In this document: piece by piece, positions 50,357 through 62,934 of the stretch | Layout: each line of letters starts with the position of its first letter | Numbering within the stretch: the first letter of the stretch is position 1 | The notes under the pieces: generated by a model | What the model saw: only the letters and a program-made list of their open reading frames with translations | What the model was told of the DNA's origin: nothing | The model's database searches: none | Made by a program: the position numbers and the translations under genes | Origin: Variovorax sp. CF079 | Lineage (GTDB): Bacteria; Pseudomonadota; Gammaproteobacteria; Burkholderiales; Burkholderiaceae_C | Assembly: GCF_900101545.1 (NCBI RefSeq) | Contig: NZ_FMZU01000001.1 | Span: 248,001 to 312,000, forward strand | Direction: 5' to 3' | DNA: 64,000 bases

Positions 50357-51163
50357 CTAGGTTTTGAGGTTGGAATACAGGCCGGTGATGCGATCCATGA
50401 TCGCCAGCAGGTTCTCGCTGGTGACGAACACGTCGGACATGAGCTTGGGCGACGCACTCGCGCCTTCCAGACGCTGAAGGCCGTGGTTGAAGAACACCCA
50501 CTGCGCGTCGGCCAGCACCAGCTCCTCCTTGATCTGCGTCGTGACCTCGGGCGCACTGCGCAGGGTTTCGAGTGCTGCAACGAACTCCGAGCGCGCCTTG
50601 GCGATCTCGGCCGCGCTGCCCGTCGGGTCGATCTGCAGGGCACTGGCCAGGTAGAACTTGGCCATGCGTTGCGACAGCATGCGCTGGCGGCCCGCGATGT
50701 TGACCAGCTTGCCCACCGACTTGCCCGAGGCCGCTTCGTACTGCACCGTGCCCTGGTGCGCCAGGGCGAGCACGGCGGCATCCAGCTTGACGACCTTTGC
50801 CGCTTCGTTCTTGCCGGGTGCGGGGCCCGTCAGTTCTCTCTTGAAATCGTTCCAGGCACCGTCGAGCGTGTCGTAGGTGCCGCGGATGGTGGGGGTAGGC
50901 GCGAAGGTCTTGAGCTCCACCAGTTGGCGGTCGAACAGGGCGATGGACCGGTCCAGCACCTGCTGGGCGTTGCGCGTCTCCACTTTTTGCACCAGCGCCA
51001 GGTAGGCCTTGCTCGCACGCTGCGAGAGCATGCGCTGGCGCCCCGCCTTGTTGATGGCGTCGTTGAGGTCGGCCACCTGGGCGCGTGCGCCCAGGCCGAT
51101 CAGGGCGGTCGAGGCGATGAAGAGCCGTCTTTTCAAACCACTTCTCCGGCTTGCGGTTTTCAT
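50357..51163 (-). CDS. Exported protein with two NarX-like P-box (PilJ-type) domains, between nirB and nirD
   Basis: This 268-residue protein has a Sec signal peptide (SRRSGLKRRLFIASTALIGLGARA, cleavage after ARA-Q) and is otherwise all helical and soluble, so it should be periplasmic. It contains two copies of the motif (A)INKAGRQRMLSQR (about 37-49, Arg44) and LVNIAGRQRMLSQRM (about 153-167, Arg161). This corresponds to the P-box of NarX/NarQ nitrate sensors, where the aligned Arg binds nitrate, and to Pfam's PilJ-type N-terminal domain. It lacks kinase, HAMP or methylation regions. ATG 51163 overlaps the nirB stop (ATGA), so it is co-translated with nitrite reductase. A role in nitrate/nitrite binding is inferred. 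Confidence 0.88.
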   Translation of the reverse strand: MKTASRRSGLKRRLFIASTALIGLGARAQVADLNDAINKAGRQRMLSQRASKAYLALVQKVETRNAQQVLDRSIALFDRQLVELKTFAPTPTIRGTYDTLDGAWNDFKRELTGPAPGKNEAAKVVKLDAAVLALAHQGTVQYEAASGKSVGKLVNIAGRQRMLSQRMAKFYLASALQIDPTGSAAEIAKARSEFVAALETLRSAPEVTTQIKEELVLADAQWVFFNHGLQRLEGASASPKLMSDVFVTSENLLAIMDRITGLYSNLKT

Positions 51164-53592
51164 GCCGTCAGCGGCGTGAACTGCCGCACGTCGACCGAGG
51201 CCTGGCTCGACTCGAACCACGGATCGGGTTCGCCGTCGAGTGCGAACTGCAGTCGCTCCCACAGCGCCTTGCGGCCTTCGGCGTCCTCGAGAATCTTCTT
51301 CTTCACATAGTCCAGGCCCACACGGCCGATGTAGTGCACCGTGCGCTCGAGGTACCAGCCCTCTTCGCGGTAGAGCTGCAGGAACGCGCCCGCGTACTCC
51401 ATCACTTCCTCGGAGGTCTTGACCTTCACGAGGAACTGCGCCACCTCGGTCTTGATGCCGCCATTGCCGCCCACGTAGAGTTCCCAGCCCGAGTCGACGC
51501 CGATCACGCCCACGTCCTTGATGCCGGCCTCCGCGCAGTTGCGCGGGCAGCCCGAGACCGCGAGCTTGACCTTGTGCGGCGAGTACATGGCCCACAGCGC
51601 GCGCTCGAGGTCCTTGCCCATCTGCGTCGAGTCCTGCGTGCCGAAGCGGCACCACTCGCTGCCGACGCAGGTCTTCACCGTGCGCAGCGACTTTGCGTAG
51701 GCAAAGCCCGAGGGCATGCCGATGTCCTTCCAGACGTTCTCCAGGTCTTCCTTCTTCACCCCGAGGAGGTCGATGCGCTGTCCGCCGGTGACCTTGACGG
51801 TCGGGATCTTGTACTTGTCGGCCGCGTCCGCAATGCGGCGCAGTTCGTCGGGCGTGGTGTGGCCGCCCCACATGCGCGGGATCACCGAATAGGTGCCGTC
51901 CTTCTGGATGTTGGCGTGGCTGCGCTCGTTGATGAAGCGGCTCTGCGGGTCGTCCTTGGCCTCCTTGGGCCAGGTCGAGATCAGGTAGTAGTTGACGGCC
52001 GGGCGGCAGGTCGCGCAGCCGTTGGGCGTGCGCCAGCCGAGGCCGCGATAGACCTCATCGTGCGTGAGCCAGTGTTCCTTGCGGATCGCGTCGCGCACGT
52101 CCTGGTGGCTGGCGTCGGTGCAGCCGCAGACCGCCTTCTTCTTCGGCGTGGCCGAGTAGTCGCCGCCGGCGGTGAACATCAGGATCTGTTCCACCAGCCC
52201 GGTGCACGAGCCGCAGCTGGCGCTGGCCTTGGTGTGCTTCTTGACCTCTTCGAGCGTGAACAGGCCCTTGTCCTTGATGGCCTTGCAGATGGTGCCCTTG
52301 CTGACGCCGTTGCAGCCGCAGACCTCGGCGTCGTCGGGCATGCTGGCGGCCTTGCTGTGGCCTTCGTGGCCGGTGTCGCCGATGTTCGATTCGCCGAACA
52401 TCAGCTTGTCGCGGATGTCGCTCACGCTGCGGCCGTCGCGCAGCAGCTTGAAGTACCAGCTGCCGTCGACCGTGTCGCCGTAGAGGCAGGCGCCGACCAG
52501 CTTGTCGTCCTTGATCACCAGCTTCTTGTAGACGCCGCCGAAGGGGTCGCTCATCACGATCTCCTCGGTGCCTTCGCCGCCCATGAATTCGCCGGCGCTG
52601 AAGAGGTCGATGCCCGTCACCTTGAGCTTGGTCGAGGTCAGAGATCCGAGGTAGCGGCCGATGCCGAACTGCGCGAGATGGTTGGCCGCCACCTTGGCCT
52701 GCTCGAACAAGGGTGCGACCAGCCCGTAGGCGATGCCGCGGTGGGCCGCGCATTCGCCCACCGAGTAGATGCGCGCGTCGGTCACGGTCTGCATGGTGTC
52801 GGTGACCACGATGCCGCGGTTGCAATGCAGGCGCATCTTCTCGGCCAGCTCGACGTTGGGCCGGATGCCCACGGCCATCACGACCAGGTCGGCCGCGACC
52901 TCGGTGCCGTCCTTGAAGTGGATGGCCGCAACGCGTCCTTCATCGTTGCCGACCAGCTCCTGCGTCTGCGCGCCGATCAGGAACTTGAGCCCGCGGTCTT
53001 CCAGCGACTTCTGCAGCAGCTTGCCCGCCACGTCGTCGAGCTGGCGCTCCATGAGCCAGGGCATGACATGCACTACGGTCACGTTCATGCCGCGCAGCAT
53101 CAGGCCGTTGGCCGCTTCCAGGCCCAGCAGGCCGCCGCCGATGACCACCGCGTTCTTGTGCGTCTTCGCGGTCTCGATCATGTAGTCGGTGTCGGCGATG
53201 TCGCGGTAGGCGATCACGCCCTTCAGGTCCTTGCCCGGGACGGGCAGCATGAAGGGGTTGGAGCCGGTGCACATCAGCAGGCGGTCGTAGGCGGCCTCGG
53301 TGCCGTCCTCGGCCCGCACGATGCGCTTGACGCGATCGACCTCGACCACCTTCTTGCCGGCGTGCAGCGTGATGTTGTTCTCGGCGTACCACTCCCAGCT
53401 GTTGAGCACGATCTCGTCGACCGTCTGCTCGCCGGCGAGCACCGGCGACAGCAGGATGCGGTTGTAGTTGGGATGCGGCTCGGCGCCGAAGACGGTGATG
53501 TCGTAGAGATCGGGCTCGATCTTCAGCAGCTCTTCGAGCGTGCGCACGCCGGCCATGCCGTTGCCGACCATCACGAGTTTCATCTTCTTCAT
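51160..53592 (-). CDS. nirB: NADH-dependent assimilatory nitrite reductase large subunit NirB
   Basis: This 810-residue siroheme flavoprotein reduces nitrite to ammonium with NADH. An N-terminal NAD(P)/FAD domain (KLVMVGNGMAGVRTLEELL and NAVVIGGGLLGLEAANGLMLRGMNVTVVHV) is followed by two BFD-type [2Fe-2S] modules (CGCNGVSKG...CGSCTGLV and CGCTDAS...GCATCRPAV) and the nitrite/sulfite half-domains with the siroheme-[4Fe-4S] ligands in TCVGSEWCRFG and GCPRNCAEAG. ATG 53592 is used, with GAAAGG upstream. It is divergent from the PP2C-kinase gene with only 58 bases between, and heads the nirB operon. Confidence 0.96.
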   Translation of the reverse strand: MKKMKLVMVGNGMAGVRTLEELLKIEPDLYDITVFGAEPHPNYNRILLSPVLAGEQTVDEIVLNSWEWYAENNITLHAGKKVVEVDRVKRIVRAEDGTEAAYDRLLMCTGSNPFMLPVPGKDLKGVIAYRDIADTDYMIETAKTHKNAVVIGGGLLGLEAANGLMLRGMNVTVVHVMPWLMERQLDDVAGKLLQKSLEDRGLKFLIGAQTQELVGNDEGRVAAIHFKDGTEVAADLVVMAVGIRPNVELAEKMRLHCNRGIVVTDTMQTVTDARIYSVGECAAHRGIAYGLVAPLFEQAKVAANHLAQFGIGRYLGSLTSTKLKVTGIDLFSAGEFMGGEGTEEIVMSDPFGGVYKKLVIKDDKLVGACLYGDTVDGSWYFKLLRDGRSVSDIRDKLMFGESNIGDTGHEGHSKAASMPDDAEVCGCNGVSKGTICKAIKDKGLFTLEEVKKHTKASASCGSCTGLVEQILMFTAGGDYSATPKKKAVCGCTDASHQDVRDAIRKEHWLTHDEVYRGLGWRTPNGCATCRPAVNYYLISTWPKEAKDDPQSRFINERSHANIQKDGTYSVIPRMWGGHTTPDELRRIADAADKYKIPTVKVTGGQRIDLLGVKKEDLENVWKDIGMPSGFAYAKSLRTVKTCVGSEWCRFGTQDSTQMGKDLERALWAMYSPHKVKLAVSGCPRNCAEAGIKDVGVIGVDSGWELYVGGNGGIKTEVAQFLVKVKTSEEVMEYAGAFLQLYREEGWYLERTVHYIGRVGLDYVKKKILEDAEGRKALWERLQFALDGEPDPWFESSQASVDVRQFTPLTA

Positions 53593-53650
53593 GGGGTGGG
53601 ACCTTTCAAGCAAAGAGGGGGCTCGCGGCTTGCGCGGACAATCGCGCGCC

Positions 53651-55357
53651 ATGAGCTTCGAAGTAGAGATCGGCTACAGCAGCCACCGCGGGCCGCGCCC
53701 GCAGAACGAGGACTTCGCCGGCGCGGTGCATGCGCCGCGCGGCGAGGAGTCGCGCGGGCTGATCGCGGCGATCGCCGACGGCGTTTCTTCGGGCGGCCAC
53801 GGGCTGGAGGCGGCGCAGACCACCGTCATCGGCCTCCTGGGCGACTACTTCGCCACGCCCGACACCTGGGAGCCGACGGTCGCGATGGACCGACTGATCG
53901 CCGCCCAGAACGCCTGGCTGGCCGATCACAACCGGCGCCGCCGCCAGGACAGCGCCATGACCACGCTGACCGCCCTGGCCCTGCACGGGCAGAGCTACAC
54001 GCTGGCCCATGTGGGCGACACGCGCGCCTGGCGCGTGCGCAAGGGCGAGGGCGCGGCCATGCAGTTGAGCGTCGACCATGCGCTGGACCATCCCGACCTG
54101 CGCAGCCGCCTGACGCGCGCGGTGGGCCTCGACGACCACGTGCGCGTCGACTACATGCAAGGCGAGCTGCGCATCGGCGACTGCTTCGTGCTCAGCACCG
54201 ACGGCGTGCACGGCGTGCTGAAGCCTGCGCGCGTGGCCGAGCTCGCGCTGGCCACCAATGCGCAGCAGGCCAGCGACGCGCTGGTCGACGCGGCGATCGC
54301 CGCCGGCACCCGCGACAATGCCACCGCGCTGGTCATCCGCGTGCTCGGGCTGGATGCGCGCCAGCTGCACGACGAGCTGGGCGATGCGCGCCGCCTGGAT
54401 CCGCCCGCGGCGCTGAAGGTGGGCGAGGTGCTGGACGGCTACGCGATCACCGCGCTGGTCGCCGACACCGGCGTGCACCGGCTCTACCAGGCGCGCCATG
54501 TGCCCACCCGCGCGCTGGTCGCGCTCAAGACCCTGCACCCTTCGCGCGCCAGCGACCCCGAGGAGCGCGCCATGCTGGCGCACGAGGCCTGGCTGGGCCT
54601 GCGCGTGGGCGGGCGCGGCGAGCCCGGCTTCGTGCGCGTGCACGAACGCGCCGACGACGCCAGCGCGCTCTACACCGTGTTCGACTGGCATGGCGGCCGC
54701 ACCGTCGAACAGATGTTGCGCTCGGGCATGCGCCCGGCCGTGGCGGAGGTGGTGGCCGCCGCGGTCCAGATCTGCAAGAGCCTGGGCCGGCTGCACCGCC
54801 ACGGCGTGGTGCATCGGGACATCAAGCCCGGCAATCTGCACCTGGGCGACGACGGCTGCTGGCGCATCCTCGACCTGGGCGTGGCGCTCTCGGGCCGCGA
54901 GGGCGCGGCGCAGCGCGAGCTGCATGCCGGCACGCCCAGCTTCATGAACCCCGAGCAATGGGAGGGCGTCGCGCCCGATGCCGGCAGCGACCTGTTCGCC
55001 CTCGGCGTGGTGCTGTACCAATGGCTGGGCGGGCGCCTGCCTTACGGCGAGATCGAGCCCTACCAGATCGCCCGCTACCGGCGCGATCCCGTGGCGCTCT
55101 CGCGCATCCGGCCGGACGTGCCGATCTGGCTCGACCATCTGGTGCGCAAGGCGGTGGCGCGCGATCCGCGGCAGCGTTTCGAGACCGCCGAGGAGATGCT
55201 GCTGGCGCTCGAACGCGGCGCGGCCCGCCCGGTCGGCGCGCCGGCCGCCACGCCGCTGGTGCGGCGCGATCCCGCCCTGCTGTGGAAGATCGCGCTGGCC
55301 GCGTCGCTGCTCTTCAACGCGCTGCTCGTCTACTGGCTGCTGTTCCTGCCGCGCTGA
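53651..55357 (+). CDS. Fused PP2C phosphatase / serine-threonine protein kinase with C-terminal membrane anchor
   Basis: This 568-residue protein joins two opposing activities. Residues about 1-235 form a PP2C phosphatase (GPRPQNEDFAG, AIADGVSSGGHG, AHVGDTRAW, STDGVHGV, TRDNATALVIRV). Residues about 260-530 form a kinase with VALKTL (ATP Lys), HRDIKPGNL catalytic loop, ILDLGVAL in place of the DFG motif and GTPSFMNPEQWEG in the activation segment. No clear Gly-rich loop is visible. The last helix (KIALAASLLFNALLVYWLLFL) anchors it in the membrane. It is divergent from nirB and convergent with narK. In Burkholderiales such fused proteins recur beside nitrate assimilation genes, to my recollection. 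Confidence 0.9.
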   Translation: MSFEVEIGYSSHRGPRPQNEDFAGAVHAPRGEESRGLIAAIADGVSSGGHGLEAAQTTVIGLLGDYFATPDTWEPTVAMDRLIAAQNAWLADHNRRRRQDSAMTTLTALALHGQSYTLAHVGDTRAWRVRKGEGAAMQLSVDHALDHPDLRSRLTRAVGLDDHVRVDYMQGELRIGDCFVLSTDGVHGVLKPARVAELALATNAQQASDALVDAAIAAGTRDNATALVIRVLGLDARQLHDELGDARRLDPPAALKVGEVLDGYAITALVADTGVHRLYQARHVPTRALVALKTLHPSRASDPEERAMLAHEAWLGLRVGGRGEPGFVRVHERADDASALYTVFDWHGGRTVEQMLRSGMRPAVAEVVAAAVQICKSLGRLHRHGVVHRDIKPGNLHLGDDGCWRILDLGVALSGREGAAQRELHAGTPSFMNPEQWEGVAPDAGSDLFALGVVLYQWLGGRLPYGEIEPYQIARYRRDPVALSRIRPDVPIWLDHLVRKAVARDPRQRFETAEEMLLALERGAARPVGAPAATPLVRRDPALLWKIALAASLLFNALLVYWLLFLPR

Positions 55358-55389: not shown

Positions 55390-56667
55390 TCACCGTCCGG
55401 CGCTGCGGCGCAGCGGCCGGACCGGCCGGTCGCCCTCGCCGGCTGGATCGACCGGCGTGCTGCGTGCGCGGCCGCCCTTCTCGGCCCAGGTCCGCGTCCA
55501 GCGGATCTGCATGACCCGCATGACGCCCAGCATCACCAGGGCCAGCACTGCGAACAGCATGAAGCCCCACATGTAGGTGCCCAGGTACTGCTTCGACAGG
55601 CCCATCGCATTGGGCACCAGGCCGCCGCCCAGGGCGCCGATCTCGCCGATCATCGAGCCGGCCACGGCCGTGGTCGTCGGCCAGCGCAGCGGCACCAGCT
55701 GGAACAGCGCGCCGTTGCCCGCGCCCAGGGCGGCAAAGCACACCATCAGCAGCAGCGTGGTGATCGCGAGCGAGCCGGAGGAGAGCCCGATCAGCGCCAG
55801 CGAGACCGCCGACACCACCAGCACCAGCGTCAGCGTGTTGACGCCGCCCCAGCGGTCGGAGATCCAGCCGCCCATCACGCGCACCGCCGCGCCCATGAAC
55901 GCGGCCAGCATCGTCAGCTGGCCCGCCTGCACCTTGCTCACGCCGAACTGGTCGTAGTAGTAGGAGGGCAGGAAGGTGGTGAGGCCGATGAAGCCGCCGA
56001 AGGTGACGCCGTAGATCAGGCTGAAGGCCCAGCCGTCCTTCTCGAACAGGCAGGCCACGTGCTCGCGCAGGCCGGCGTGGCTGTCGACGTCGGGCGGCTC
56101 CTGCGCGAACAGCACCATCACCGCCATCGGCAGCAGGATGGCCACCGCCGCGACGCCGTAGACGGCCTGCCAGCCGAGCCATTGCGCCAGCGGCGGCGCG
56201 ACCAGCACCGACAGCGCCGTGCCCACGTTGCCGGCGCCCACCAGCCCCATCGCCAGGCCCTTGTTCTGCGGCGGGAAGGAGCCCGAGCCCAGCGACAGGG
56301 CCACGCCGAAGCTGGCGCCCGCGATGCCCAGCAGCACGCCCATGGCCAGCAGGTCGTTGAAGCTGTGCACCATGAAGAAGCCGAACAGCATCGCCACCGC
56401 GATCAGCCCCATCTCCACCAGCGTGGCGTTCTTGCGCCCGATGTACTGCGACAGGATGCCGAGCGGAAAGCGCATCAGCGCGCCGGCGATGATCGGGATC
56501 GACAGCATCAGCCCCATCTGCGCGGGATTCAACTGGAAGGCCTCGCCGATGAAGGGCGCCATAGCGCCGTTCAGCACCCAGATGCAACACGAGAACATGA
56601 AGTAGAAGAAGGCCGCGAAGAGGGTGGGGGCGTGCCCGGAGCGCAGGAATGACTTGAAGCTGGACAT
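55390..56667 (-). CDS. Nitrate/nitrite transporter of the NarK (MFS) family
   Basis: This 425-residue protein has 12 membrane helices of the major facilitator superfamily. The NarK/NrtP-type nitrate signature is visible in GVALSLGSGSFPPQNKGLAMGLVGAGNVGTALSV and, in the second half, FGGFIGLTTFLPSYYYDQFGVSKVQAGQLTMLAAFMGAAVRVMGGWISDRWGG. Conserved Arg residues of both halves are present. ATG 56667 gives the usual N-terminus. Its leader carries a sigma-54 promoter and an ANTAR-type hexaloop hairpin, so it is probably induced by nitrogen limitation and nitrate. It is convergent with the PP2C-kinase gene. Confidence 0.94.
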   Translation of the reverse strand: MSSFKSFLRSGHAPTLFAAFFYFMFSCCIWVLNGAMAPFIGEAFQLNPAQMGLMLSIPIIAGALMRFPLGILSQYIGRKNATLVEMGLIAVAMLFGFFMVHSFNDLLAMGVLLGIAGASFGVALSLGSGSFPPQNKGLAMGLVGAGNVGTALSVLVAPPLAQWLGWQAVYGVAAVAILLPMAVMVLFAQEPPDVDSHAGLREHVACLFEKDGWAFSLIYGVTFGGFIGLTTFLPSYYYDQFGVSKVQAGQLTMLAAFMGAAVRVMGGWISDRWGGVNTLTLVLVVSAVSLALIGLSSGSLAITTLLLMVCFAALGAGNGALFQLVPLRWPTTTAVAGSMIGEIGALGGGLVPNAMGLSKQYLGTYMWGFMLFAVLALVMLGVMRVMQIRWTRTWAEKGGRARSTPVDPAGEGDRPVRPLRRSAGR

Positions 56668-56932: not shown

Positions 56933-58198
56933 ATGATTCGACTCTTGCTCGTCTTGCCTGACTCCGATGCCGAGGTGCTGAGCCAAGTGCTGGCGGGCGC
57001 GGATGCCGCCGCCATCGGCTTCAGCACCTGCGACACGATGGTGCAGGAGGCCGCCATGCTCGCACCGCAACAGGTGCTGATCCACAGGCCCGCATCGATC
57101 CCTGACCTGCAGGCCGCCCTGCATACCTGGGCTGGCGCTCCGCCGCATCCGGTCGTGGTGATCAGCGAGCCGCTGTCGCCAGAAGTGCATGAGGCGCTCG
57201 TCGAGCTGGGCGTGCACGCCTGGTCGTGCGCCGAAACCCTGGATGCACAGAGCCTGCGCGCCGTGCTGGCGCGCGCGCAGGTGCGCTGGCAGCGCGAGGC
57301 TGCGCTGCGCGACACGCTGGCGCGCTCGCTCGCCCATCTCGACGAGCGCAAGTGGGTGGACCGCGCCAAGGGGCTCCTGATGTCGGCGCGCGGCATCGGC
57401 GAGGACGCCGCGTTCGGCATGCTGCGCGGTGCAGCGATGCACGCCAACCTGCGGGTCGGTGAACTCTCGCGTTCGGTGGTCGAGGCGGCCCAGTGGGCCG
57501 AGGCGATCAACCGTGCCGGGCAGTTGCGCATGCTCTCGCAGCGGCTGGTGCGCCTGGCGGCGCAGGCGCTCGCGGATGTGGATGCGCGGCGCAGCCGCAG
57601 CCTGCGCGCGCAGTCGGTCGAGCGGGTCAAGGACAACCTCGATCACCTGGCTTCCCTCCCGCTGGATCCGACCTCGATGCAGGCGCTGGCGGCCGTGCGC
57701 TCGGCATGGGATGCCATGGATGCGGCGCTGTCCTTGCGGCTGTCCGCGGCCTCGCTGACCGCCATCGACGCCAGCGGCGAAGACCTGCTGGTCGCGGCCG
57801 AGGCGCTCACCGACGTGCTCGAATCCTCCGCGGGCCGCAGGGCCTTGCGCATCGTCAATCTCTGCGGGCGGCAGCGCATGCGCGCCCATCGCCTGGCCAA
57901 GGACGCGCTGCTCGCCGCGATGCTGCCCGAGGGCGCGTGGAGCGCGCGCCTCGCGCCCACCATGGACACTTTCGAGGCCTCGCTGCTGGAGCTGGAGCGC
58001 GCGCCGCTGAGCTCGCCCGAGATCCGCGACGCGCTCCATGGCGCCCGCGACGAATGGCTGCGGCTGGTGCGCGGCGTGCGCCATGCCGACCGGGCCGAGG
58101 GGCGCGCCGATCTGGTGCGCGCCAGCGAGGTGCTGGCCGATACCTTCGACCGGCTCACCGCCTCGTACGAACACAGCCTGCAGGTCATCATGTCCTGA
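56933..58198 (+). CDS. ANTAR antitermination regulator with two NarX-like P-box domains
   Basis: This 421-residue cytoplasmic protein has a receiver-like N-terminus (about 1-110) in which the expected phospho-Asp position is occupied by His51 (VLIHRP), so phosphorylation is unlikely, as in NasT. An ANTAR RNA-binding domain follows at about 127-187 (ERKWVDRAKGLLMSARGIGEDAAFGMLRGAAMHANLRVGELS). Residues 190-204 (EAINRAGQLRMLSQR, Arg199) and 307-320 (IVNLCGRQRMRAHR, Arg315) are P-box motifs of the NarX/PilJ type. Nothing suggests membrane insertion. The combination of ANTAR with P-boxes is unusual and suggests direct nitrate or nitrite control of antitermination. It is divergent from narK. Confidence 0.88.
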   Translation: MIRLLLVLPDSDAEVLSQVLAGADAAAIGFSTCDTMVQEAAMLAPQQVLIHRPASIPDLQAALHTWAGAPPHPVVVISEPLSPEVHEALVELGVHAWSCAETLDAQSLRAVLARAQVRWQREAALRDTLARSLAHLDERKWVDRAKGLLMSARGIGEDAAFGMLRGAAMHANLRVGELSRSVVEAAQWAEAINRAGQLRMLSQRLVRLAAQALADVDARRSRSLRAQSVERVKDNLDHLASLPLDPTSMQALAAVRSAWDAMDAALSLRLSAASLTAIDASGEDLLVAAEALTDVLESSAGRRALRIVNLCGRQRMRAHRLAKDALLAAMLPEGAWSARLAPTMDTFEASLLELERAPLSSPEIRDALHGARDEWLRLVRGVRHADRAEGRADLVRASEVLADTFDRLTASYEHSLQVIMS

Positions 58199-58219: not shown

Positions 58220-59017
58220 TCAGGCCGCGACCTTCTCCACGTGCGCCTGGCGCGTGTAGAGAAAGTCGATTACGGCCTTGCGGGCGTGCACGTAGACGGG
58301 GTCTTCCGCGAGCTCGACGCGGTTGCGCGGGCGCGGGATGTCGACTGCCAGCACCTCGCCGATGGTGGCGGCCGGGCCGTTGGTGAGCATGACGATGCGG
58401 TCCGACAGGAGCACCGCCTCGTCGACGTCGTGCGTGACCATCACCACCGTGCTGTGCGTCTTCTGCACGATGGCCAGCAACTCGTCCTGCAACTTGGCGC
58501 GCGTCAGCGCGTCGAGGGCGCCGAAGGGCTCGTCCATCAGCAGCACCTTGGGTTCCATCGAGAGGGCGCGTGCAATGCCCACGCGCTGTTTCATGCCGCC
58601 GGAGATTTCGCCGGGGCGCTTCTGCGCGGCCGGCGTGAGGCCGACCAGCGCGAGCGCCGCTTCGGTGCGCGCCCTGAGCTGCGCCTTGTTCTCGGTCGAA
58701 GCGAACACGCGCTCGACGGCGAGGTAGACGTTCTCGTAGCAGGTGAGCCAGGGCAGCAGCGAATGGTTCTGGAACACCACCGCGCGCTCGGGCCCCGGGC
58801 CCTTGATCTCGCGGTTGGCGCACAGCAGCACGCCCTGCGTGGGCGTGGTGAGGCCGGCGATCAGGTTCAGCAACGTGGACTTGCCGCAGCCCGAATGCCC
58901 GATCAGCGTGATGAACTCGCCCTTGGCCACCTGCAGGTTGATGTCGCGCAACGCGAGGAAGCTGCCCTTGGGCGTCTTGAAGCGCTGTTCGACGTCGTGG
59001 ATTTCGATGTACTTCAT
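58220..59017 (-). CDS. nrtC: Nitrate ABC transporter ATP-binding protein
   Basis: This 265-residue ATPase powers nitrate uptake. Walker A is in GHSGCGKST, the Q-loop in VVFQNHSLLPW, the signature in ISGGMKQRVGIARAL and Walker B in VLLMDEPFGALD. It corresponds to the NrtD/NasD-type single-domain protein rather than the fused NrtC of cyanobacteria, so the symbol follows common annotation of the three-gene operon. ATG 59017 gives the canonical MKYIEIHDVEQRF start. A dispersed repeat lies between it and nrtB. It is convergent with the ANTAR/P-box gene. Confidence 0.94.
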   Translation of the reverse strand: MKYIEIHDVEQRFKTPKGSFLALRDINLQVAKGEFITLIGHSGCGKSTLLNLIAGLTTPTQGVLLCANREIKGPGPERAVVFQNHSLLPWLTCYENVYLAVERVFASTENKAQLRARTEAALALVGLTPAAQKRPGEISGGMKQRVGIARALSMEPKVLLMDEPFGALDALTRAKLQDELLAIVQKTHSTVVMVTHDVDEAVLLSDRIVMLTNGPAATIGEVLAVDIPRPRNRVELAEDPVYVHARKAVIDFLYTRQAHVEKVAA

Positions 59018-59049: not shown

Positions 59050-59973
59050 TCATGCCTTCACCTCTTCGAACGTGAATGCGGTGGCGATCCGGATCAGCGC
59101 GAACTCGAGCACGAGCCCGACCACGCCGATGACGAAGATCGCGATGATGATGTTGGCGACGTTGAGGTTGTTCCACTCGTCCCAGACCCAGAAGCCGATG
59201 CCAACGCCGCCGGTCAGCATCTCGGCCGCCACGATCACCAGCCAGGCGGTGCCGACCGCGAGGCGCACGCCGGTCAGCATGTAGGGCAGCACGGCGGGGA
59301 ACAGGATCTTGGTGAGGATCTTCCACTCGGAAAGATTGAGCACGCGCGCCACATTCATGTAGTCGCTGGGCACGCGCTGCACGCCCACCGCGGTGTTGAT
59401 GATCATGGGCCAGATCGAGCAGATGAAGATGGTCCAGATCGCGGCCGGGTTGGCGCCCTTGAAGACCAGGAGGCCGATCGGCAGCCAGGCCAGCGGCGAC
59501 ACCGGTCGCAGCAGGCTGATCAGCGGATTGAACATGCGCGAGAGGAACTCGAAGCGACCGATCGCGAAGCCGGCCGGGATGCCGACCGCGGCGGCCAGCC
59601 CGAAGCCGAGCGCCACGCGCTGGAGCGACGAGAGCACGTTCCAGCCCACGCCCTGGTCGTTGGGGCCCTTGCTGTAGAAGGGATCGCTGAACACGGTCAG
59701 CGCCTGTTGCCAGACGGCGGCCGGCGACGGGAAGCCGGTGGTGCTTTTCAGCGCCACGAGTTCCCAGATCAGGACCAGCAACGCAAAGCCAAGGATCGGC
59801 GGCAGCACGCGCAGCCAGATCCAGCTGAAGTCGCGCGGGGCGCGGGGCGTGGTCTCTTCCTGCGCGGGCTCTGCAGGCGGGACGGAGGCGGCCGCGGACT
59901 TCCTGGCGGCTGCCGGTGTGGCGAGCTGCCCCTGGGCAGCCTCGAGCGGGGAGTGAAAGACGGCACTGACCAT
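59050..59973 (-). CDS. nrtB: Nitrate ABC transporter permease NrtB
   Basis: This 307-residue inner-membrane protein has six helices and the EAA-type permease loop (SDYMNVARVLNLSEWKILTKILFPAVLPYML), typical of NrtB/SsuC transporters. An Ala/Pro-rich cytoplasmic segment precedes the first helix. Start ATG 59973 is chosen over one six codons earlier because GAGGAG lies seven bases before it; the earlier Met would overlap nrtA and have no such site. It forms a dimer with itself and works with NrtA and the ATPase. Confidence 0.94.
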   Translation of the reverse strand: MVSAVFHSPLEAAQGQLATPAAARKSAAASVPPAEPAQEETTPRAPRDFSWIWLRVLPPILGFALLVLIWELVALKSTTGFPSPAAVWQQALTVFSDPFYSKGPNDQGVGWNVLSSLQRVALGFGLAAAVGIPAGFAIGRFEFLSRMFNPLISLLRPVSPLAWLPIGLLVFKGANPAAIWTIFICSIWPMIINTAVGVQRVPSDYMNVARVLNLSEWKILTKILFPAVLPYMLTGVRLAVGTAWLVIVAAEMLTGGVGIGFWVWDEWNNLNVANIIIAIFVIGVVGLVLEFALIRIATAFTFEEVKA

Positions 59974-59983
59974 GGCGGGCTCC

Positions 59984-61228
59984 TCAGGCATTGACCTTGA
60001 ACGACTCGGCGTACTTCTTCGGATCCTTGCCGTCCCACACCACGCCGTCGATCAGCTTGCTGCTGCGCATCGTGTCCTTGGGAACGGAGGTCTTGGTCGC
60101 GGCTGCAGCCTGCTTGTAGATGTCGATGCGGTTGATCTCCGTGGCCACCTTGAGGTAGTCCGGATGCTCCTTCAGCAGGCCCCAGCGCTTGTGCTGCGTG
60201 AGGAACCACATGCCGTCGGACAGGTAGGGGAAGGTCGCCGCGCCGTCGTTGTAGAACTTCATGTGGTTCGGGTCGTCCCAGTTCTTGCCCAGGCCGTTGG
60301 TGTAGCGGCCCAGGATGCGCTGGTTGATGGCGTCCACGCTGGTGTTGACGTAGCTCTTGTCGGCGATGGTTTCGGCCATCTTGTTCTTGTTCTGCAGGCC
60401 GGCGTCGATCCACTTCCCGGCTTCGAGAATCGCGGCCGTCACGGCGCGCGCCGTGTTGGGGTATTTCTTGACGAAGTCGCCGGTGGTGCCGAGCACCTTC
60501 TCGGGATGGTCCTTCCAGATGTCCTGCGTCGTGACGGCCGTGATGCCGATGCCGTCCATGATCGCGCGCTGGCCCCAGGGCTCGCCGACGCAGTAGCCGT
60601 CCATGTTGCCCACGCGCATGTTGGCGACCATCTGCGGCGGCGGCACGGTGATGACCTTGGCATCCTTCAACGGGTTGACGCCGTTGGCGGCCAGCCAGTA
60701 GTAGAGCCACATCGCGTGGGTGCCGGTCGGGAAGGTGTGGGCGAAGGTGTATTCGCCTTTCTCCTTCGCCATCACCTTGGCCAGCGAGGCGCCGTCGACC
60801 GCGCCCTTGTCGGCCAGTTTCTTCGACAGCGTGATCGCCTGGCCGTTGTTGTTGAGGGTCATCAGGATGGCCATGTCCTTCTTCGGCCCGGCGGTGCCGA
60901 GGTGCACGCCGTAGATCAGGCCGTAGAGCACGTGGGCGAAGTCGAGCTCGCCATTGACCAGCTTGTCGCGCACGCCGGCCCAGCTGGCTTCCTTGCTCGG
61001 CACGATCTTCACGCCGTACTTCTTGTCGATGCCGAGCACCGAGGCCATGACGACGCTGGCGCAGTCGGTCAGCGGGATGAAGCCGATCTTGACTTCCTCC
61101 TTTTCTGGCTTGTCCGAGCCTTGGGCCCAGACGGCTGCGCGCAGGGCGGGGTCGAGCCCGACCGCGCCGATGGCGGCGGCTTGCAGCACGCGGCGGCGAT
61201 TCAACTTCGGTTTCAGCAAATCGGTCAT
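59984..61228 (-). CDS. nrtA: Nitrate ABC transporter substrate-binding protein NrtA
   Basis: This 414-residue nitrate-binding protein has a Tat-type signal (LNRRRVLQAAAIGAVGLDPALRAAVWA) and the CmpA/NrtA fold: VKIGFIPLTDCASVVMASVLGIDKKYGV, ANMRVGNMDGYCVGEPWGQRAI, and NPNHMKFYNDGAATFPYLSDGMWF-like as DPNHMKFYNDGAATFPYLSDG. It delivers periplasmic nitrate to NrtB. ATG 61228 follows a 173-base leader that contains the antitermination structures, so the operon is probably induced only when nitrate is present and ammonium is scarce. Confidence 0.95.
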   Translation of the reverse strand: MTDLLKPKLNRRRVLQAAAIGAVGLDPALRAAVWAQGSDKPEKEEVKIGFIPLTDCASVVMASVLGIDKKYGVKIVPSKEASWAGVRDKLVNGELDFAHVLYGLIYGVHLGTAGPKKDMAILMTLNNNGQAITLSKKLADKGAVDGASLAKVMAKEKGEYTFAHTFPTGTHAMWLYYWLAANGVNPLKDAKVITVPPPQMVANMRVGNMDGYCVGEPWGQRAIMDGIGITAVTTQDIWKDHPEKVLGTTGDFVKKYPNTARAVTAAILEAGKWIDAGLQNKNKMAETIADKSYVNTSVDAINQRILGRYTNGLGKNWDDPNHMKFYNDGAATFPYLSDGMWFLTQHKRWGLLKEHPDYLKVATEINRIDIYKQAAAATKTSVPKDTMRSSKLIDGVVWDGKDPKKYAESFKVNA

Positions 61229-61265: not shown

Positions 61266-61336
61266 AAAACAAAAAAGGCGTCCCGACCACGCACGGGCCG
61301 CTCGATAACGAGCCCTTGCGGGATGGGGACGCCTTT
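61266..61336 (-). terminator. Leader terminator (attenuator) of the nrtABC operon
   Basis: On the minus strand AAAGGCGTCCC (61336-61326) pairs perfectly with GGGACGCCTTT (61284-61274), 11 base pairs, followed by TTTGTTTTG and a further T-rich stretch. The 41-base loop contains a smaller GCTCG-TTAT-CGAGC hairpin. It lies between the sigma-54 promoter and nrtA, so transcription should stop here unless antitermination occurs. Confidence 0.9.
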
Positions 61337-61340
61337 GTCC
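61327..61340 (-). promoter_or_regulatory. ANTAR hexaloop hairpin P2, overlaps the terminator arm
   Basis: On the minus strand GGAC and GTCC pair around the hexaloop AAAGGC (A at position 1, G at position 4). Its bases include the whole 5' arm of the terminator, so this hairpin and the terminator exclude each other. That is the arrangement of ANTAR antiterminators. Confidence 0.78.
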
Positions 61341-61349
61341 GGTTCGGTG

Positions 61350-61375
61350 GGTCGCACCCGCCGTTGGATGCCACC
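61350..61375 (-). promoter_or_regulatory. ANTAR hexaloop hairpin P1
   Basis: On the minus strand GGTGGCATCC and GGGTGCGACC form a 10-position stem (one U-G, one mismatch) around the hexaloop AACGGC, again with A at position 1 and G at position 4. It is separated from P2 by nine bases, a spacing typical of the two-hairpin ANTAR motif. Confidence 0.78.
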
Positions 61376-61412
61376 TGCCTGAAGACCCTTGCAGGTCTAT
61401 GCAGGTTTGTTA

Positions 61413-61428
61413 AGCAAACTGCGTGCCA
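61413..61428 (-). promoter_or_regulatory. Sigma-54 promoter of nrtABC
   Basis: On the minus strand TGGCACGCAGTTTGCT matches the sigma-54 consensus TGGCACG-N4-TTGCW at every conserved position, with GG and GC ten bases apart. The start would be near 61402. Together with the NtrC-like boxes about 100 bases upstream it implies control by the nitrogen regulator NtrC. Confidence 0.88.
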
Positions 61429-61539: not shown

Positions 61540-61555
61540 GCACCAATTCAGGTGC
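61540..61555. promoter_or_regulatory. NtrC-like enhancer box 2
   Basis: GCACC-AATTCA-GGTGC has perfect 5-base arms but a 6-base spacer rather than 5. It overlaps the nasR stop codon and lies directly beside box 1, as paired NtrC sites often do. Confidence 0.5.
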
Positions 61556-62849
61556 GAGGCGCCCGGGACGCCGGCTCGCCGGGCAGGTATTCGGCCATCG
61601 AGAGCACCGATTCGGCGACGTCGACCAGCCTGCGGTTCTGGCTCATGGCTGTCTGGCGCAGCATCTTGTGCGCCTCCTCCTCGCTGAGGCGGCGGTGTGC
61701 CATCAGCAGGCCCTTGGCGCGTTCGACCAGCTTGCGCTCGTTCAGGGCCGCGCGCACGGTGTCGAGTTCGTCGCTCATCGCCTGCAGCCGGTGCGACTGC
61801 TCCTGCACCATCTCCAGAATCGATCGCTCGAGCTGCCGGCCGTAGGGCGTGGCTGAACCCATGGTTTGCGGGTGGCCCGGCGCGTCTGCAGCGGGCTGCT
61901 CGTCGAAGAAGACTGCCGCCGGTGTACCCGCCTCGCGCGCCAGCTTGGCCAGCAGCGCGTCATGGGCCTGCAGCTCGGCCCGGGCCTGGCTCGTTTTCTG
62001 CTCGCAGATCCGGCGCAGGTCGGCGGCCAGGCGCTCTTCGATCGATTGCATGGCGTCGATGCGCCGGCTGCAGCAGTCGAACCAGGTCTGGCTCAGTTCG
62101 GTATCGAGTGCCACGCCGGCGGGTGCCGCGCAGGCGATGCGGCGCAGCCGTTCCTGCTCCGCCAATTGGGCGGGGGATTGACTGCTGCGCCAGAGCTCGG
62201 CGATGCGCGCGCCCGAGAACTCGGCGAAGACCTGGAAGCAGCGCTCCTGCGATTCGATCAGATGCAGCCATTGCTGCTGGCGCGCGCTGTCGTTGAGGCC
62301 CGAGGCGAAGGCCGCGGCGCCGCAGGCGCGCTCCTGGCCGGCGAACTCCTTGCCCTGCATGAAATTGAACATGGCCACCAGCTGGCGAGAGATTTCCGGG
62401 TCGGTGGCGCCGTCCGCGGCCTCGAACACGACTGCGAGCAGCCCTGCGATCAGCTTGACGAAGGCGGCCGTCGCCTCAGCCGGGCTGAGCTCCAAGGCGC
62501 CGACGCGACGGCGCAGCTCGGGCAGGCCCTCGAGGCCCGGCAGCACCCAGGCGATGCGGCTGAACAGGCGCGCACCGTTGCCGATGCGGCCCGCGTCGGC
62601 CTCGAGCTGATCGAACGAAGCGCGCACCGCCTCTTCCACGCGCAGGCATTCGGCGATCTGCTCGCTGCGCTGCGAGACGAAACGGTGGCCACGCGACGCC
62701 AGCAGCACGTTCGAGATGCCGCGTTCGCGCTGCAGCGCATGGACCAGGCGGCCGATCGTGCCGACCAGCGCGCTGGTGCGGGCGAGCTGCTCCAGCGCGT
62801 CGATTTCGCAACGCAGGGCGGCCATCAGAAAGCTCAGTCCGGATTTCAT
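61548..62849 (-). CDS. nasR: NasR-type nitrate-responsive antiterminator (NIT + ANTAR domains)
   Basis: This 433-residue cytoplasmic protein has an N-terminal NIT domain (RLVHALQRERGISNVLLASRGHRF at about 34-57, and MFNFMQGKEFAGQERACGAAAF further on) that binds nitrate or nitrite in Klebsiella NasR. It ends with a C-terminal ANTAR domain (ERKLVERAKGLLMAHRRLSEEEAHKMLRQTAMSQNRRLVDVAESVL). With nitrate bound, NasR binds two hexaloop hairpins in leader RNA and prevents termination. Here it lies directly upstream of the nrtABC leader that shows those features. ATG 62849 is preferred; two in-frame Mets up to 62897 are also possible and no start has a strong ribosome site. Confidence 0.9.
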   Translation of the reverse strand: MKSGLSFLMAALRCEIDALEQLARTSALVGTIGRLVHALQRERGISNVLLASRGHRFVSQRSEQIAECLRVEEAVRASFDQLEADAGRIGNGARLFSRIAWVLPGLEGLPELRRRVGALELSPAEATAAFVKLIAGLLAVVFEAADGATDPEISRQLVAMFNFMQGKEFAGQERACGAAAFASGLNDSARQQQWLHLIESQERCFQVFAEFSGARIAELWRSSQSPAQLAEQERLRRIACAAPAGVALDTELSQTWFDCCSRRIDAMQSIEERLAADLRRICEQKTSQARAELQAHDALLAKLAREAGTPAAVFFDEQPAADAPGHPQTMGSATPYGRQLERSILEMVQEQSHRLQAMSDELDTVRAALNERKLVERAKGLLMAHRRLSEEEAHKMLRQTAMSQNRRLVDVAESVLSMAEYLPGEPASRAPRT

Positions 62850-62934
62850 CGTGGGGCGGCATGGCTGAAGAGCCATCCTAAGGACATGCAGCAACATCCG
62901 TGCCCCGACATCGTGCGCACCCTACACTCGTCGC

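Follow-up and report, generated by a model that had tools for sequence, protein, structure and literature searches.

A leader behind a sigma-54 consensus promoter upstream of nrtABC in Variovorax sp. CF079, very probably a NasR-type antitermination switch

The nasR-nrtABC locus

The window analyzed here, a 64-kb stretch of DNA (64,000 nucleotides in full), carries on its minus strand a regulator gene, nasR (61548 to 62897), followed by the genes of a nitrate ABC transporter. Based on the similarity of NasR to the proteins of named relatives (96% identity to NasR of V. paradoxus ISL-79), the genome was placed in Variovorax. The exported substrate-binding protein (59984 to 61228) was matched by Pfam NMT1_2 (3.5e-101), shows a Tat-like signal by eye and is assigned as NrtA from its context. 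The permease gene nrtB (59050 to 59991) and the ATPase gene nrtC (58220 to 59017) were identified by NCBIfam models TIGR01183 and TIGR01184, respectively, both above cut-off.

NasR joins an N-terminal NIT domain (Pfam, 1.4e-50) and a C-terminal ANTAR domain (3.3e-20) in one protein, and it matches Klebsiella NasR (4AKK) over both domains (E 1.3e-49). The assignment of a NasR-type gene directly upstream of the leader, made in an earlier note from the letters of the sequence, is thereby borne out, and NasR is a candidate for reading the leader. The arginines of ERG and LRR, which we take to be the nitrate ligands (with the register uncertain by one), are kept in the 4AKK alignment and in all 29 genus rows; across the 32 family rows, which include two genus members, they show little or no variation. 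Using the residue numbers of PMC7496416, the equivalents of R340, K341 and K347 were found in all 29 genus rows and in 31 to 32 of the 32 family rows, and the Variovorax NasR should therefore bind RNA. Other positions vary. Where Klebsiella has W362, all 29 genus rows have H and the family rows either H or Y. R366 and N373 are needed for RNA binding in Klebsiella, but L replaces the R366 equivalent in five of the 29 genus rows and N stands at the N373 position in only 8; the window protein has both R and N. The autoinhibitory pairs given for Klebsiella NasR in PMC7496416 are E191-R340, R193-E359, Q194-W362, D201-R366 and Q204-N373; at these positions the window protein has R, E, H, R and N on the ANTAR side and A, Q, Q, E and E on the NIT side. 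Because the E191 equivalent is A, as it is in 23 of the 29 genus rows, the coupling to nitrate may differ in detail from that in Klebsiella.

Between nasR and nrtA, the minus strand shows a sigma-54 promoter (TGGCACGCAGTTTGCT, TGGCACG-CAGT-TTGCT; 61428 to 61413) that fits the -24/-12 consensus GG-N10-GC. Downstream of it lie a hairpin seen in the minimum-energy folds, P0 (AGACCT-GCAA-GGGTCT, 61398 to 61383), and two hexaloop hairpins, P1 (GCATCC-AACGGC-GGGTGC, 61371 to 61354, extendable to 61375/61350) and P2 (GGAC-AAAGGC-GTCC, 61340 to 61327). Both hexaloop hairpins are backed by sequence, a pattern scan, folding and covariation, the last in 28 aligned leaders for P1 and at loop position 3 for P2. 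An intrinsic terminator follows (61336 to 61271), with an 11-bp stem formed by the arms AAAGGCGTCCC (61336 to 61326) and GGGACGCCTTT (61284 to 61274), a structured 41-nt insert and a T tract after the second arm; the evidence for it comes from sequence, folds and double-sided changes. Its 5' arm is made of the P2 loop and the P2 3' strand, so that P2 and the terminator have bases 61336 to 61327 in common. The consensus promoter, the A1/G4 loops AACGGC and AAAGGC and the 11-bp terminator with its T tract had all been named in the earlier note, and each could be read directly.

Both loops are closed by CG pairs, a feature preferred in NasR SELEX according to PMC7496416. The spacing of nine bases claimed earlier for the two hairpins holds when P1 is lengthened beyond a G.G mismatch (GGU/ACC); many of the 28 aligned relatives form all or part of this longer stem. 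With the 6-bp P1 the linker is 13 nt. For comparison, eut leaders are described in PMC3369931 as working with linkers of 5 to 12 nt and as impaired with 3 and 14 nt. A scan of the 64-kb window for A1/G4 hexaloop hairpin pairs (stems of at least 4 bp, linker 3 to 25) recovered this pair among three, and only the pair between nasR and nrtA has a terminator behind it. Further upstream are a putative NtrC-like enhancer site, GCAC-N7-GTGC (61536 to 61522), whose pattern we assume to be that of NtrC sites, and, between it and the promoter, an inverted repeat, GCTAT-N7-ATAGC (61465 to 61449).

Folding calculations agree with two alternative states. The leader RNA (61412 to 61229) has a folding energy 3.75 sd below that of its own shuffles. 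From the predicted +1 to the end of P2, the minimum-energy fold is P0-P1-P2 (-30.2 kcal/mol), and in the longer RNA from the same start P2 is swapped for the terminator (P0-P1-terminator, -69.1 kcal/mol). When the RNA was begun 10 nt further upstream, P1 was replaced by another hairpin in the minimum-energy structure, and the formation of P1 in the window sequence alone thus depends on the 5' end. By eye, the competing hairpin is not kept in the relatives compared, and it was set aside.

The systematic match score missing from the earlier note did not come from Rfam 15, which gave no match above the gathering thresholds anywhere in the window; a model built here (R1, see below) finds the element in independent genomes. 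We do not take the Rfam result as evidence against the leader.

Conservation and covariation of the leader

A search of 61 genomes gave a NasR match in 36, all of them members of the window's genus; the DNA of 30 of these loci was examined first and that of the other six afterwards. A leader lies behind nasR in 35 of the 36, and in the 36th the contig ends 243 nt past nasR. The order nasR, sigma-54 promoter, hairpins, nrtA was read in 28 loci. In seven further genomes the leader behind nasR was found by covariance model; six of them are those examined afterwards, and in the seventh no nrtA appeared within 1.5 kb. Two genomes have an additional NasR copy, which gave a weak match (18 bits) in one and none in the other.

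P1 with its loop, P2 and the terminator are kept across the 28 aligned leaders. The cells of P1 and P2 are 94.4% paired, and these two hairpins show 13 double-sided changes where shuffles average 4.3, and 0 of 500 shuffles reached that count. The four pairs of P2 never vary in the genus and are thus uninformative on covariation. The terminator helices have 6 double-sided changes (0.6 in shuffles). Controls in which the helices were slid scored lower for cells paired, pairs with double-sided changes and covariation, the exception being one terminator slide that equalled the double-sided cell count (6).

These alignments bear on another explanation, that the hairpins are the terminator of nasR together with chance structure and that nrtABC starts downstream. 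A terminator right behind nasR would be normal, but in every one of the 28 loci read a sigma-54 promoter separates nasR from the terminator, the distance from terminator to nrtA start leaves only 36 to 78 nt, and P1, although no part of the terminator, covaries and has a conserved loop. We regard this explanation as very improbable. A protein-free riboswitch or translational attenuator with coincidental hexaloops would account for the strong structure of the leader and for the 41-nt terminator insert, which is unusually conserved. Against it, Rfam gave no match, and the adjacent ANTAR gene and the A1/G4 loops are traits of ANTAR leaders, which makes such an element hardly credible here. The comparison instead supports the antitermination reading of the earlier note through conservation behind nasR, covariation of P1 and the P2 loop changes described below.

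The 28 genus leaders served to build the covariance model R1 and so match it by construction, which is not the case for most of the other matches. In the window's own genome R1 finds only the window leader (118 bits, with an antisense shadow at 37.6), and the next scores in that genome were 16.3 and 15.8 bits (E >7). Among 80 named NasR loci (Variovorax, Xenophilus, Polaromonas, Pseudacidovorax and others) it finds the leader in 78, and the other two end within about 250 nt of nasR. For the 61 best of these 80 loci (the Variovorax group), a sigma-54 site was present in 60, a stem at the P0 position in 56 (against 12% of shuffles, with many stem sequences and a variable loop), the NtrC-like pattern GCAC-N7-GTGC upstream of the leader in 46 and a repeat like GCTAT/ATAGC in 45.

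Beyond the genus, R1 matches 102 of 299 family genomes (57 of 141 genera) and, in a sample of 300 genomes of the order, 42 (28 of 135 genera, with own and family members counted). An ANTAR match is present in 100 of the 102 leader-bearing family genomes and in 240 of the 299 overall, as compared by eye; the two leader-bearing genomes with no ANTAR match are drafts. The surroundings of the family leaders were combined with 15 NasR loci chosen among those with no genome-scale R1 match; 14 of these have a weak R1 match (24 to 42 bits) between nasR and nrtA, and the fifteenth has one elsewhere. The set holds 139 sense leaders, for which an upstream regulator was counted if it lay within 700 nt. 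They stand between a NasT-type gene and nrtA (66), between a NasR-type gene and nrtA (31), before nrtA with no such regulator (14), and, with any regulator, before nirB (17) or narK (6), with other arrangements in 5; 97 of the 139 thus lie between a NasT- or NasR-type gene and nrtA. Since leaders also precede nirB or narK, some genomes have two or three per nitrate regulon. 'NasT-type' here means an ANTAR protein with no NIT or PilJ match; six such proteins were checked, and all six had the ANTAR domain; a receiver domain was matched in four, twice above the Pfam cut-off. For 65 of 69 loci the 2.5 kb upstream of the NasT-type gene showed no NasS-like gene; the remaining four are truncated by an end. 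In the window itself, the 330 nt upstream of nirB gave neither a sigma-54 pattern nor a visible leader.

Of the 139 family leaders, 118 have a match to a strict sigma-54 pattern in the 120 nt before them. Two CG-closed A1/G4 hexaloops were found in 72 of the 139, against 1 of 13,900 shuffles; the remaining 67 miss this strict pattern through longer linkers, shorter stems or a G1. The P2 block could be read in 132. All six P2 loop bases lie opposite the terminator 3' arm in the terminator fold, and loop positions 4 to 6 pair with that arm in 132 of 132. At loop position 3 the partners are A-U in 94 leaders, C-G in 23 and U-G in one, with 14 mismatches. The P2 loop thus changes together with the terminator 3' arm, and this compensation between loop and stem is what mutual exclusion predicts and speaks directly for bases common to both folds. 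Taken with the shared positions and the folds in the window, it upholds the earlier claim that P2 and the terminator exclude each other. Loop position 1 is A in 115 leaders and G in 17; of the G1 loops, nine are before nirB or narK (L098, L102, L138 and L141 are nirB examples) and eight before nrtA. They are possibly a relaxed variant of the A1 rule.

A second ANTAR protein and the narK region

Three ANTAR matches were obtained in the window's genome: NasR, an ANTAR-PilJ protein encoded on the plus strand at 56933 to 58198 (Pfam PilJ 4.9e-18, ANTAR 5.1e-15) and a third on another contig. The third (C50:17144-17293, L003) lies, by eye, behind a gene for a substrate-binding protein and is possibly AmiR-like. 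In the ANTAR-PilJ protein the ANTAR domain comes first, and its RNA-contact residues are kept by eye in the 4AKK alignment. The nitrate N-box, a motif taken from PMC6381276, occurs in its PilJ domain with one mismatch in the window and exactly in 4 of 7 ANTAR-PilJ ORFs from relatives. In relatives as in the window, the gene for this protein and narK are transcribed divergently.

An alternative or additional reader of the leader could be sought in this protein: ANTAR-PilJ would read the RNA in Variovorax alone or with NasR, giving two nitrate inputs to one RNA. Its place in the same cluster, its RNA-contact residues and its N-box would suit this, as would one genome, G346, in which leader and nrtA are present and ANTAR-PilJ alone gives an ANTAR match. 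However, 97 of the leaders sit beside a NasR- or NasT-type gene, many leader genomes have no strong ANTAR-PilJ match, and P2 has only a five-base loop in G346 (L167) and a G1 in G071, which has ANTAR-PilJ and one weak ANTAR match. The G346 leader has possibly decayed after loss of NasT or NasR, and the G1 of G071 would fit such decay. In a further genome, G240, no ANTAR match other than ANTAR-PilJ was obtained; its gene lies beside narK, in a nas cluster where R1 finds no leader. We consider reading of the leader by ANTAR-PilJ unlikely, and NasR stays the preferred reader.

Upstream of narK (minus strand, ATG at 56667) is an element (56871 to 56825) with a sigma-54 promoter and then a potential hexaloop hairpin, CGGTGT-AACGAA-GCACCG, which would have A1 and G4 in its loop and a U-G closing pair. 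After the promoter, a stretch of about 26 bases, GGTGTAACGAAGCACCGC(T/A)TTGGTGA, is identical in all 18 narK regions of the genus that were read (15 that held narK among 20 examined, two from loci and the window); four loci of other genera have similar hairpins with different stems. The second half of the stretch also resembles an NtrC site, and the whole may be either a single-hairpin RNA target of an ANTAR protein or a DNA site for NtrC.

Between nirB and nirD, a PilJ-only and probably exported protein is encoded in the nitrite/nitrate reductase cluster (50357 to 51154, minus strand); two exact N-boxes are seen in it by eye, and an exact N-box occurs in 11 of 11 such ORFs of relatives. Between narK and nirB, on the opposite strand (53540 to 55357, plus), lies a gene for a fused PP2C phosphatase and protein kinase, which is also found in the G240 cluster.

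Likely exchange of the regulator and proposed mode of control

Our analyses indicate that in this family the leader is not tied to NasR-type regulators; this and the second ANTAR protein in the cluster go beyond the first reading of the sequence. The two settings differ in the P2 loop and in spacing. Outside the window's group, most NasR-type loci carry the P2 loop AACGGC (26 of all 32 NasR-type/nrtA loci), with 32 to 38 nt between the loops and, by eye, often a small extra linker hairpin. The loop is AAAGGC in 57 of 69 NasT-type loci, mostly with 20 to 31 nt between the loops and in a minority with 45 to 59. Three relatives of a neighbouring genus and, besides the window, two genus members combine NasR with AAAGGC and 23 to 25 nt. 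A leader form otherwise seen beside NasT is in this way paired with NasR in the window's genus and its closest neighbours. The P2 of one locus (L131) was read differently by the two patterns used.

The history of this pairing was examined on nrtA trees. Early trees (110 and 106 rows) had long branches, and in two further loci nrtA was too short. For a more careful tree of 90 rows, 10 loci with no adjacent regulator and 10 long-branch or divergent NrtA rows (7 of the 10 NasR-type) were removed. On it the regulator label requires six changes, four of them forced by well-supported branches. A single origin of NasR-type loci was found in 0 of 200 bootstrap trees, and an AU test against a single NasR-type clade gave a borderline rejection (p 0.046). 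On these grounds it is likely that the regulator was exchanged repeatedly relative to nrtA. When regulator type and P2 loop base 3 were compared in independent pairs, four pairs on starred branches gave a median p of 0.25, and the loop association is thus not shown to be independent of descent.

These observations would fit a wider scheme, which we offer tentatively as possible rather than probable. The leader may be a regulator-neutral nitrate cassette that sits before nrtA and was copied to nirB and narK, NasT and NasR having been exchanged in front of it; the Variovorax NasR would have taken over a leader of the NasT form, and ANTAR-PilJ would have a single-hairpin narK target of its own. 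In the account of PMC5424462, nasR is placed mainly in the gamma-proteobacteria.

For the window, we consider it highly likely that the element is a two-hairpin ANTAR antitermination leader for nrtABC with NasR as its putative reader; a NasR-type leader under sigma-54 is very probable and the part of NtrC probable, as in Klebsiella nasF. We infer the following course of control. Under nitrogen limitation the sigma-54 promoter would be switched on, with NtrC probably bound about 125 bp upstream of the start, and transcription would begin near 61402. By default P0 and P1 would fold, the terminator would overtake P2 and RNA polymerase would halt near 61271, at the T tract. With nitrate (or nitrite) bound to its NIT domain, a NasR dimer would hold the A1/G4 loops of P1 and P2, the terminator could not close and nrtABC would be transcribed. 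The outcome would be an AND gate for nitrogen need and the presence of nitrate.

The antitermination mechanism itself has been demonstrated for Klebsiella NasR and E. faecalis EutV (PMC7496416, PMC3369931), and the Variovorax nrtABC leader is very probably a further case. The Klebsiella oxytoca nasF leader and NasR were studied by Lin and Stewart and by Chai and Stewart, as cited in PMC7496416, PMC3369931 and PMC5424462. As far as these papers describe it, that system shares with ours a NIT-ANTAR protein, two A1/G4 hexaloop hairpins with the second overlapping the terminator, nitrate assimilation targets and the combination of Ntr-dependent transcription with nitrate antitermination, the latter inferred here. 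It differs in that the Variovorax regulator gene is directly upstream, the target is nrtABC and the leader has an additional 5' hairpin (P0), a 41-nt conserved terminator insert and a second ANTAR protein nearby. Leaders of the NasS-NasT systems of Paracoccus, Azotobacter and Bradyrhizobium, as described in PMC5424462 (see also PMC3795266 and PMC6759348), likewise lie between an ANTAR gene and nitrate assimilation genes. The window leader closely resembles the leaders beside NasT-type genes in its own family, whereas its regulator is NIT-ANTAR and not receiver-ANTAR. The EutV leaders of Enterococcus faecalis, in the description of PMC3369931, share the dual hexaloop antiterminator that overlaps a terminator and, with some members of this family, several targets per genome, but differ in two-component activation and in the genes controlled. 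That paper also reports ANTAR leaders predicted for Burkholderia and upstream of nitrate transporters. In literature searches on nitrate antitermination or assimilation in Variovorax, and on NasR, NasT or ANTAR proteins in Burkholderia or Comamonadaceae, we found no paper on this leader.

With this leader, a plant-associated and easily grown genus would gain a complete AND gate for nitrate and nitrogen, in which a known promoter type is combined with a known RNA switch. The compensation between P2 loop and terminator provides natural evidence for the accepted model of mutually exclusive folds. The family also poses a testable question, namely whether NIT-ANTAR, receiver-ANTAR and ANTAR-PilJ proteins read one two-hairpin RNA interchangeably. 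If they do, sensing would be rewired while the target RNA is left untouched.
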